The notes below the pieces were generated by a model. It searched no databases. It saw nothing but the letters and a program-made list of their open reading frames with translations, and was not told where the DNA came from. A DNA stretch of 64,000 nucleotides from Puniceicoccaceae bacterium (GTDB lineage: Bacteria > Verrucomicrobiota > Verrucomicrobiia > Opitutales > JAFGAQ01), in contig JANQOQ010000006.1 of assembly GCA_028285755.1 (NCBI GenBank), positions 434,001-498,000 on the forward strand. Direction: 5' to 3'. A program made the position numbers and the translations under genes. Below, in pieces: positions 47,074 through 52,060 of this stretch. Within the stretch, counting starts at the first letter, position 1, and every line of letters starts with the position of its first letter.

Positions 47074-47139
47074 TAGTTATTTACTTACAGTTTTTCTTAT
47101 TTTAATAAAAGACAAAACGCCGAATTGTTTAAAAAAATT

Positions 47140-48990
47140 ATGTGTGGAATTGTAGGATACGTGGGTAAATCTCAAGCGCGGGATTTTTTGTTAGAGGGGC
47201 TCAAACGCTTGGAATACAGGGGTTATGACTCTGCGGGAGTCGCCTTTTTCAACCGAGAAGCCTTTAAAATAGCGCGTAAAACCGGGCGGGTTGCCAATCT
47301 CGCAGCCAGTGTGCATGCGAACGACCTGGATGGCAGTATGGGTATCAGCCATACACGCTGGGCAACCCATGGGGACGTTACTGAGGATAATGCCCACCCC
47401 CAGACCAGCAGTGACGGGCTATTTACGCTCGTTCACAACGGTGTCATCGAAAACTTTTCTCAAATCAAGAACTTCCTGGAAGAACAGGGATACACCTTCA
47501 GTAGTCAGACAGATACCGAGAGTCTCGCAAACCTGATCGCCTATCACTATGCAAAGGAGCCGGAGCAAAATGGGAAAAACCGCTTCTTCGTAAGTGTGCG
47601 CAAAGCCCTGCTCCACGTACACGGCACTTATGGGATTGTAGTAATGTGCCGGGATTATCCGGGTGAGCTTGTGGGTGCACGTAACGGCTCGCCCCTGATT
47701 GTAGGTATCGGCGATGGTGAATTCTATGTGGCCAGCGATGCTTCAGCATTTGCCGGTAAAAGCCAGAACGTGGTATACCTCAATGATGGCGAGGTCATCC
47801 ACTTCGATTCCAAAAACTTCAACATTAAAACGATTGCAGACGAGGCGGTAGAAGCAGTCGTGCAAAAGATCGAAAATCGCCTCGAGGATTACGATTTGGG
47901 AGATTTCCGCCATTACATGGAGAAGGAGATTTTTGAACAACCTAACGCTTTGCAAAACGCCATGCGCGGGCGATTCTCGGATGATAACAGCACAGCAAAA
48001 TTTGGAGGTCTGAATATCGAGCCTCACGAACTCCGCCAAATCGACCGTATCCTCTTTTGCGCCTGCGGTACCGCCTGGCATGCGTGCCTTGTGGCTGAGT
48101 ATATGATCGAGAAATATGCGCGTATTCCTGTAGAAGTGGAGTACGCATCCGAGTTTCGCTATCGCAATGCCCCGCTCGATAAAAACACCTTGGTCGTGGT
48201 AATCAGCCAATCCGGAGAGACGATTGATACCCTAGCTGCGCTCAAGGAGGCAAAACGCAAGGGTTACCGTGTATTTGCGATTACCAATGCAGTCGGTTCA
48301 ACCATCGCACGCGAGGTCCATGGCGGCGTCTATCAGCACGCGGGGCCGGAGATTGGCGTAGCTTCTACCAAGGCATTCACCTCGCAGGCACTAATCGCGG
48401 CAATGCTTGCACTGTATCTCGGCAGAATCCGGGACATGAGCTACTCGGAAGGGGCTAAGTTTGTGACCGCGCTCAAAACACTGCCGGAACTCGTCAATAA
48501 CGTGCTTAACCAGAGTGATCAAATTTTAGCTATCGCTAAGAAATATGCCCAATACGAAGATTTCTTATTCCTCGGTAGGCAGAATATGTTCCCCATCGCA
48601 CTGGAGGGCGCTCTCAAACTCAAGGAAATCTCCTACATTCATGCAGAGGGTTACCCGGCGGCTGAGATGAAGCATGGGCCTATCGCACTGATCAGCGAAA
48701 AATGCCCTTCCCTGTTCCTCGCGACCGGCGGTGAAATCTTTTCCAAAACGCTCGCCAACATTCAGGAGGTAAAGGCCCGCAAGGGTAAGGTAATCGTCAT
48801 AGCAACGGACAGCTGCGAATTTCCGGAAGATTTGGTAGACGATCTTATCCGGGTCCCGGATTGCCACGATGCACTGCAACCCATACTGGCATGCATACCC
48901 GTCCAATTACTCAGCTATTATATCGCCGTTGAGCGCGGATGTGACGTGGATAAGCCACGAAACCTTGCAAAGTCCGTAACGGTCGAATAA
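47140..48990 (+). CDS. glmS: Glutamine-fructose-6-phosphate aminotransferase (isomerising)
   Basis: GlmS makes glucosamine-6-phosphate from fructose-6-phosphate and glutamine, feeding peptidoglycan and aminosugars. The start at 47140 is required because the nucleophilic Cys must follow Met (MCGIVGYVG); the upstream TTG at 47125 would bury it. The 616 residues comprise a class II glutaminase domain (1-240, with SHTRWATHG) and two SIS domains (about 290-420 and 460-595, with VISQSGETIDT and YAEG-like HAEGYPAAEMKHGP). The C-terminus DKPRNLAKSVTVE is invariant. There is no room for a glmS ribozyme upstream. It is followed by gnd after 22 bases. Confidence 0.96.
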   Translation: MCGIVGYVGKSQARDFLLEGLKRLEYRGYDSAGVAFFNREAFKIARKTGRVANLAASVHANDLDGSMGISHTRWATHGDVTEDNAHPQTSSDGLFTLVHNGVIENFSQIKNFLEEQGYTFSSQTDTESLANLIAYHYAKEPEQNGKNRFFVSVRKALLHVHGTYGIVVMCRDYPGELVGARNGSPLIVGIGDGEFYVASDASAFAGKSQNVVYLNDGEVIHFDSKNFNIKTIADEAVEAVVQKIENRLEDYDLGDFRHYMEKEIFEQPNALQNAMRGRFSDDNSTAKFGGLNIEPHELRQIDRILFCACGTAWHACLVAEYMIEKYARIPVEVEYASEFRYRNAPLDKNTLVVVISQSGETIDTLAALKEAKRKGYRVFAITNAVGSTIAREVHGGVYQHAGPEIGVASTKAFTSQALIAAMLALYLGRIRDMSYSEGAKFVTALKTLPELVNNVLNQSDQILAIAKKYAQYEDFLFLGRQNMFPIALEGALKLKEISYIHAEGYPAAEMKHGPIALISEKCPSLFLATGGEIFSKTLANIQEVKARKGKVIVIATDSCEFPEDLVDDLIRVPDCHDALQPILACIPVQLLSYYIAVERGCDVDKPRNLAKSVTVE

Positions 48991-50515: not shown

Positions 50516-50522
50516 CATTTCA

Positions 50523-50556
50523 AAAAAAGCCCTGTCAATAAGACAGGGCTTTTTAA
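50523..50556 (+). terminator. Rho-independent terminator after gnd
   Basis: AGCCCTGTC (50528-50536), a 5-base loop and GACAGGGCT (50542-50550) form a perfect 9-base stem, extended by flanking A and T runs (AAAAAA before, TTTTAA after). It is a strong canonical terminator and closes the glmS-gnd transcript. Confidence 0.92.
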
Positions 50557-50615
50557 TAATTTCATGTAAAAACTGAGTATTTAAGCGGCTGTATTCCAAA
50601 CACTTAGACTAGTTC

Positions 50616-50698: not shown

Positions 50699-52060
50699 AT
50701 GCGCTTCGATAAACTCATTACTCAAAACCGAATCGTAGATCTTAAGAGTAAGGAGCTAAAAGGTGCTTTTAAGGAATTATTGGAGCTGTTTTCTTTTGAG
50801 GAAGATGATAAAACCGCCAAAAGACGCATCCTCAGCGAACTTCTCGATAAGGAAAAAACCCGCACCAGCTATCTGGGTGAAGGGGTAGCCATGCCCTATA
50901 TACGCACCCCCTGGAATAAACGCTACGGCGTTGCCATTGGGCGTTGTCCGGATGGGCTCACACACGATATTCCCAGTGAATACGGCAAAGTGCAGTTTAT
51001 CGTATTGCTGATTATCAACGATAAAGCACGCAATTATGTGCGGGTGCTGTCGGATTTCGCACAGATTTTCCAGGACGAAAGCATCATCGAATCACTCCAG
51101 GCAACCGAAACGGTTGAAGAATTTCGCCTGGAACTCAAAAATGCAATCAGCGGGATCGCAAAGCTCCCGCAAATCGAGTATTCGCGCATCAATCGCAATC
51201 TGCTTAAGGAAGCAGAGCGTATTTGCTCGATTTCTCACTGCTCGGCATTGATGATTTTCGGGGATACTTTCAGCAACCGGATTTTCGAGCTGGGCGTGGA
51301 TCTCAGAGGTCTTCGAACCATACTGGTATCCCAGGGGAAAAAGGAAACCACCGGAGATCGGCCTCATATTGACGAGGTAATACCATTGCGCACACACTCC
51401 CACTCTCGTTTATCGCAGATGCGCAGTGCCTTCATCATCGGTCTGGGCCGCGGTATATTTAGCCCGCACGATATTGTATGCTGTGTTGGGGGAGTTCCAC
51501 GCAGCAACCTGCTGGATACGATCATGGTGATCGATGTATATCGCGAATTTAATACTTTAATCCCCGGCAGGACGAATGTGATCCCCCCGGGAGTTCAGAT
51601 CGAAGTGCTAGAGCGCATACTCTCAATCGCCACTGAGCTTTCAATCGAGGGGCGTGAGGGCAAACCCGTGGGTTGCCTCTTCGTCATCGGAGATTCCGAG
51701 AAGGTCACCGAACATTCTCAACCCCTGCTGCTCAATCCCTTTTATGGCTACGGCGAAGACGAGCGCAACGTCCTCAACCCATTCATGGATGAGACACTCA
51801 AGGAGCTCTCCAGTATTGACGGCGCCTTCATTATACGCGGCAATGGCGTTCTGGAATCTGCAGGCAGCCTCTTGCGCCCCCTGCAATATCCGCAAAGTCT
51901 GCCGAGTGGCCTCGGCTCCCGCCACGCAGCGGCAGCAGGGATCACCCTGAGCTTTAAGTGTGTCGCCATCGTGGTTTCCTCTAGCACCGGGAATGTGAGC
52001 CTGTTCAGCGGGGGTGATATGATCACCCTCACGGAAAATAAGGCTGGCGGCCAATTTTAA
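50699..52060 (+). CDS. Three-domain diadenylate cyclase with EIIA-like N-terminus (EIIA-PK_C-DAC)
   Basis: This 453-residue protein is predicted to make cyclic di-AMP from two ATP. Residues 1-150 resemble a PTS EIIA type-2 domain, but the phospho-accepting His of the GxAxPH motif is Tyr67 (GVAMPYIRT). Residues about 158-283 look like the pyruvate kinase C-terminal-like fold found in DacZ/CdaZ enzymes. Residues about 300-445 are the DAC (DisA_N) domain: DGAFII at 374-379 and GSRHAAAAG at 406-414 are the two active-site motifs, with Ala replacing the last Arg of RHR. The usual VVSEETG appears as VVSSSTG. It is not an integral membrane protein. It has its own promoter and lies before rpmG. The EIIA-like part may act as a metabolite or protein sensor. 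Confidence 0.85.
   Translation: MRFDKLITQNRIVDLKSKELKGAFKELLELFSFEEDDKTAKRRILSELLDKEKTRTSYLGEGVAMPYIRTPWNKRYGVAIGRCPDGLTHDIPSEYGKVQFIVLLIINDKARNYVRVLSDFAQIFQDESIIESLQATETVEEFRLELKNAISGIAKLPQIEYSRINRNLLKEAERICSISHCSALMIFGDTFSNRIFELGVDLRGLRTILVSQGKKETTGDRPHIDEVIPLRTHSHSRLSQMRSAFIIGLGRGIFSPHDIVCCVGGVPRSNLLDTIMVIDVYREFNTLIPGRTNVIPPGVQIEVLERILSIATELSIEGREGKPVGCLFVIGDSEKVTEHSQPLLLNPFYGYGEDERNVLNPFMDETLKELSSIDGAFIIRGNGVLESAGSLLRPLQYPQSLPSGLGSRHAAAAGITLSFKCVAIVVSSSTGNVSLFSGGDMITLTENKAGGQF

Follow-up and report, generated by a model that had tools for sequence, protein, structure and literature searches.

The window analysed here, a stretch of 64,000 nucleotides from a Puniceicoccaceae bacterium of the order Opitutales (Verrucomicrobiota; contig JANQOQ010000006.1, positions 434,001 to 498,000), encodes a diadenylate cyclase (DAC) in which an EIIA domain of the phosphotransferase system (PTS) is joined to a DacZ_P domain and to the catalytic DAC domain, and in which the phospho-acceptor histidine of the EIIA domain is a tyrosine (Tyr67). 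By its domains and motifs this protein is a known kind of enzyme, new in having lost the phospho-histidine. Taken jointly, the observations lead us to favour, with moderate confidence, the view that the Opitutales possess a DAC controlled by EIIA and DacZ_P which receives PTS input through His67, and that this input has been uncoupled in the lineage of the window by Tyr67.

Domain architecture and the site around residue 67

The window protein is the sole DAC of its genome. All three of its Pfam matches lie above the curated cut-offs, namely PTS_EIIA_2 (PF00359) at residues 14-147 (E-value 2e-14, 54.1 bits against a cut-off of 27), DacZ_P (PF21755) at residues 179-283 (E-value 6e-9, 36.1 bits against 27.4) and DAC (PF02457) at residues 315-440 (E-value 6e-21, 74.6 bits against 27). 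The three-part EIIA, PK_C-like and DAC architecture proposed in a preliminary description of this gene is thereby borne out, the DAC match included. As full-length homologues with 36-73% identity span the order and no second DAC gene occurs in the genome, the observation is more than a chance one.

In a full-length AlphaFold model (9 sequences), about 150 residues match CdaA structures and the remainder is weak, the EIIA part among it, with an overall predicted local distance difference test score (pLDDT) of 62.5. The fold assignment of the EIIA part rests on a separate AlphaFold2 model of residues 1-155 alone, which replaces the weak full-length model and has a pLDDT of 81. Its best structure matches are EIIA-Ntr proteins (2a0j, E-value 3e-10), and it matches the Escherichia coli IIA-Ntr (PtsN, 1a6j) with a Z score of 18.2 and a root-mean-square deviation of 2.5 over 145 residues, in agreement with the EIIA-like fold first suggested for the N-terminus. 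Residue 67, where EIIA proteins have their phospho-acceptor histidine, is a tyrosine (codon TAT) within the sequence GVAMPY, and the acceptor is thus absent as described previously. The protein is also without the second classical EIIA active-site histidine, the aligned residue being Tyr113.

Distribution of the protein and of Tyr67

The distribution was followed in a sample of 388 genomes of the phylum and 70 of the order. Full-length homologues are present in nearly all of the order genomes of the phylum sample, with more distant EIIA-DAC proteins occurring elsewhere in the phylum, and a DAC is present in 63 of the 70 genomes of the order. Named relatives are metagenome-assembled genomes of Opitutales, Opitutaceae and Puniceicoccales. 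On these counts, the EIIA-DacZ_P-DAC protein is the DAC that Opitutales normally carry, in most cases as their only one.

Across 84 full-length homologues, position 67 is occupied by histidine in 74, tyrosine in six, serine in two and cysteine in two, the 74 histidine-bearing proteins having the canonical LPHxR motif. Tyr67 is found in the taxonomic family of the window (five genomes) and, independently, in genome G428. The Tyr67 proteins of the window's taxonomic family form a monophyletic clade in the tree (support 100), which lies next to a histidine-bearing family (f7). Read from the alignment and the tree, the change from histidine to tyrosine occurred on the stem of the window's taxonomic family, being present in 5/5 genomes with the site otherwise intact, and once elsewhere. 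In all five the EIIA domain is full-length and E52, YLG (58-60), G62, P66, R69 and Y76 are intact, unlike in another family (f4), where the histidine motif has collapsed.

PTS components in the Opitutales

Among the 70 genomes of the order, EI was found in 57, HPr in 61 and HPr kinase (HprK) in 59. Domains of the EIIA_2 type were found in 58, EIIA-Man in one, EIIC in six and EIIB in six, while no EIIA-Glc scored over the cut-off. Of the 50 genomes having both EI and an orthologous DAC, 32 have no EIIA_2 besides that borne by the DAC, and 29 of these 32, from 13 families, have HPr and HprK with EIIC, EIIA-Man and EIIA-Glc absent; these counts do not include the minor EIIA types (Lac, Gut), for which no search was made. 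DACs lacking an EIIA domain (L075, L087, L094, L088) were only found in genomes that lack both EI and HPr.

The window genome belongs to these 29 transport-less genomes, and the sole EIIA found in it bears Tyr67. Its EI has an intact active-site histidine (GSVTSHTA), its HPr has a Pfam match as well as intact GIHARP and GKSIMG motifs, and HprK is present. No further EIIA_2, EIIA-Man, EIIA-Glc, EIIB or EIIC was found in it, the Lac and Gut types of EIIA not having been searched. Two other genomes of its taxonomic family (G408, G429) possess a separate small EIIA bearing the histidine motif. Another EIIA of the order is tied to cation transport, being part of a fusion protein that comprises a Na+/H+ exchanger, TrkA_N and an EIIA_2 domain (L138:147-2447, plus strand).

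Proposed PTS input to c-di-AMP synthesis

A phosphorelay from the PTS to cyclic di-AMP (c-di-AMP) is the best reading for the protein family, and we think it somewhat more probable than all other outcomes taken together. In the ancestral form, phosphate would travel from EI to HPr and on to His67 in the EIIA domain, in cells largely devoid of PTS transporters, and the phosphorylation state of His67 would determine, by way of DacZ_P, how much c-di-AMP is made. In the lineage of the window, His67 would have become tyrosine, with the fold and the remaining site staying under constraint. A Tyr67 domain would be unable to join in histidine phosphotransfer and would most likely act as a fixed-state or a partner- or ligand-binding regulatory module, with c-di-AMP synthesis uncoupled from the PTS. 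The DAC of the window organism is probably phosphorylation-independent, because EI, HPr and HprK have been kept but no EIIA with an acceptor histidine was found. The earlier suggestion of a coupling between c-di-AMP and a PTS signal by way of the EIIA part is one that we infer for the protein family as a whole, for which it is supported.

A more specific form of this proposal, to which we give slightly less than an even chance, is that in most Opitutales EI, HPr and HPr kinase could make up a dedicated signalling chain with the c-di-AMP synthase as its only or main terminal acceptor. Synthesis would then be controlled directly, through phosphotransfer, by phosphoenolpyruvate (PEP) or the glycolytic state, and the window's taxonomic family would have cut the chain by the change from histidine to tyrosine with all parts kept.

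DAC motifs and probable enzymatic competence

The canonical DAC motifs are RHR and SEE (PMC7288161). The window protein has the DGA motif and the Arg-His of the GxRHR motif, whereas the third arginine of RHR and the SEE of the CdaA/DisA type are replaced, the protein having RHA and SSS. No variation is seen among 54 homologues at D374, G375, R408, H409 and S427. The residue after Arg-His is alanine in 68 of the 84 homologues, serine in eight and threonine in five, with others in the remainder, and serine at the second glutamate position of SEE is near-universal in the protein family and is also found in one haloarchaeal DacZ. RHL, RHV, RHM or RHI occurs in the DacZ-type proteins of relatives, and RHH together with SESD in an annotated Haladaptatus DacZ. 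From these alignments RHA and SSST are typical of the DacZ-type class. As signs of inactivity they were rejected, and the doubt that the preliminary description had raised on their account does not hold, since the third RHx residue and the second glutamate of SEE vary throughout DacZ-type enzymes. Of the two features whose conservation it had proposed to follow among homologues, RHA proved to be common; Tyr67 did not, being limited to the window's taxonomic family and G428.

A PgpH-type membrane domain (PF07698; c-di-AMP hydrolase) is present in 61 of the 70 genomes of the order, that of the window included. It is absent in 5/7 genomes without a DAC as against 4/63 with one (p=0.0002, and p=0.0004 among genomes at least 90% complete, both uncorrected for relatedness). 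This co-loss supports a role in c-di-AMP metabolism for the window protein. It is worth mentioning that G102 and G299 (family f4) and G400, which are nearly complete genomes, are without both DAC and PgpH and have probably lost c-di-AMP signalling altogether, as judged from their gene content.

Alternative explanations

The EIIA domain could instead be a structural or dimerisation part throughout the protein family, exerting no PTS control over the DAC, with the signal entering via DacZ_P as in DacZ enzymes that have no EIIA. The existence of such enzymes speaks for this explanation, and several observations weigh against a PTS input. Six genomes without EI still have His67, and His67 has been lost in two lineages that have EI. 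Tyr113, at the position of the second active-site histidine, is near-invariant across the whole protein family and is found in 68 of the 74 His67 homologues, so that even the His67 forms are non-canonical. HPr and HprK could have other roles, and the count of genomes with a single EIIA leaves the minor types aside. Loss of His67 or deletion of the EIIA domain is associated with loss of EI at p=0.013 (raw, relatedness ignored), but this link is not significant when relatedness is considered, as the number of independent pairs is too small in the tree, in which the 'EI yes' label of the four outgroup genomes is a default value, EI not having been measured there; the association is no more than suggestive. 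A mere scaffold, however, would have no need of the LPHxR motif that is kept in 74 of the 84 homologues, nor does it fit with the restriction of EIIA-less DACs to genomes devoid of both EI and HPr, or with the retention of EI and HPr in many genomes in which no other EIIA was found. We regard it as unlikely.

Less probable still is that the EIIA domain of the window's taxonomic family is functionless and has been decaying since the histidine was lost. The collapsed motif of family f4 demonstrates that decay does happen, and EIIA identity is 0.60 in the window's taxonomic family against 0.76 in histidine-bearing lineages at equal DAC identity. Nevertheless, the domain is full-length in all five genomes with the residues listed above intact, one pair within this taxonomic family (EIIA 0.81 at DAC 0.86) falls inside the range of the histidine lineages, and a rate of nonsynonymous substitution (dN) of 0.28 at a saturated synonymous rate (dS) indicates purifying selection. 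These values point to an EIIA domain that evolves faster yet under purifying selection. That the window protein is no active diadenylate cyclase at all, owing to RHA and SSST in place of the canonical motifs, we consider very improbable. The ten active-site residues given for Listeria CdaA leave out the third residue of RHR (PMC7288161). The annotated haloarchaeal DacZ mentioned has RHH and SESD, and in vitro activity with Mn2+ is recorded for the DacZ of Haloferax volcanii (PMC6741144). Moreover, the motif residues of the window protein named above are invariant, no other DAC is encoded in its genome, and loss of DAC tracks loss of PgpH in the order. The uncoupling of a PTS-controlled cyclase by Tyr67 is the explanation that we prefer.

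Relation to known systems

The architecture had been thought to lie outside the described classes of DAC, a view that the literature consulted does not support. The middle domain is already covered by Pfam DacZ_P, and a 'DacD' class has been named with five examples, all from Verrucomicrobiota, among them Lacunisphaera limnophila (Opitutales), Puniceicoccaceae and Coraliomargarita (PMC6741144, Braun et al. 2019). The taxonomy of these examples fits, and DacD is very probably the present protein family because nearly all sampled genomes of the order have the EIIA-DacZ_P-DAC type, an identification drawn from the taxonomy of the named examples.

Compared with DacZ/CdaZ (DacY) of archaea and some bacteria, the window protein has in common a PK_C-like domain preceding the DAC domain and motifs of the RHx and SES type, with 41% identity to the Haladaptatus DacZ over 140 residues, and differs in its additional N-terminal EIIA domain. 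The best-scoring NCBIfam DAC model is that of DacZ (NF041371), although its 109.3 bits are far under the equivalog cut-off of 430 bits. With PtsN/EIIA-Ntr of the nitrogen PTS it shares the fold, the site around residue 67 and a regulatory PTS without transport; it differs in the fusion to a DAC, in the tyrosine at the acceptor position and in Tyr113, the last being general to the protein family. No paper on an EIIA-DAC fusion of Verrucomicrobiota was found in the literature searched, which did not include what is likely to be the key paper, Galperin 2023 ('All DACs in a row'), reportedly a sorting of DACs into 22 families that deals with PK_C-related domains of the DacZ_N superfamily. An incomplete regulatory PTS, with EI, an HPr-type carrier and EIIA and no PTS permease, is described for Brucella (PMC2937029); the Opitutales differ in that the EIIA found is carried by the c-di-AMP synthase.

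A DacZ-type DAC without EIIA is present in a few relatives (L050, L091, L099), beside the EIIA type in G173 and G431 and as the sole DAC in G420. In G410 and G431 there is an additional DAC whose Pfam score is much higher. An open reading frame (ORF) of 840 aa with DAC at its end (L044) looks like an in-frame extension.

Gene coordinates and neighbourhood

Positions of the gene and of its domains and motifs in the window
Feature	Position	Strand	Basis
EIIA-DacZ_P-DAC diadenylate cyclase, 453 aa	50699..52060	+	ORF; Pfam matches; sole DAC in genome
EIIA (PtsN-like) domain, residues 1-150	50699..51148	+	PF00359 E 2e-14; model pLDDT 81, Z 18.2 to 1a6j
Tyr67 codon (TAT), EIIA phospho-acceptor His position	50897..50899	+	Alignment of 84 homologues
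DacZ_P (PK_C-like) middle domain, about residues 160-290	51176..51568	+	PF21755 179-283, E 6e-9
DAC domain, about residues 300-445	51596..52033	+	PF02457 315-440, E 6e-21; full-length model matches CdaA structures
DGA motif, residues 374-376	51818..51826	+	D374, G375 invariant in 54 homologues
RHA motif, residues 408-410	51920..51928	+	R408, H409 invariant in 54 homologues; third residue Ala 68/84
SSST motif, residues 427-430, counterpart of SEET	51977..51988	+	S427 invariant in 54 homologues

The neighbourhood of the DAC gene in the window's taxonomic family differs from that in the other Opitutales. Most members of the order have, immediately upstream of DAC and in the same orientation, a nuoA-like gene whose sequence suggests NADH-quinone oxidoreductase subunit A. 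This upstream gene family is common to 63 loci (e.g., L007:5523-5951, L005:3979-4521, and L009:5610-5993); in the window's taxonomic family gnd or glgC is found there instead. Between gnd and the DAC gene of the window, at 50520-50560, a perfect inverted repeat, AAAAAAAGCCCTGTC-AATAA-GACAGGGCTTTTT, flanked by A and T runs, was noted by eye and looks like an intrinsic terminator; with such a repeat 5′ of it, the DAC gene probably has its own promoter. A glmS-like gene (47125-48990) lies two genes upstream of DAC and is not conserved near DAC in most relatives; in Firmicutes, cdaA adjoins glmM. In G428 (L096:242-2696, minus strand), the other Tyr67 genome, in which no EI was found, the DAC ORF is followed downstream, after 16 bases, by hprK.

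Significance

To our knowledge, little has been established about the signals to which c-di-AMP synthases respond. In the Opitutales, a synthase with a PTS acceptor domain is the only EIIA-type target found for the transport-less PTS of 29 genomes, and the fusion offers a concrete and testable input leading from PEP through EI and HPr to the DAC. This broader pattern is a new result and a more interesting one than the Tyr67 variant. The Tyr67 lineage offers a ready-made control in which phosphorylation on histidine cannot take place, and, if the proposal of a dedicated chain is true, it would be a natural experiment.

A plausible frame is provided by potassium homeostasis. Non-phosphorylated PtsN controls potassium uptake, acting on TrkA and KdpD in E. 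coli and on Kdp in Rhizobium (PMC3665714), and c-di-AMP controls potassium in many bacteria (PMC7900238). As both govern potassium, the fusion would unite two known regulators of its homeostasis, EIIA-Ntr and c-di-AMP, in one protein.
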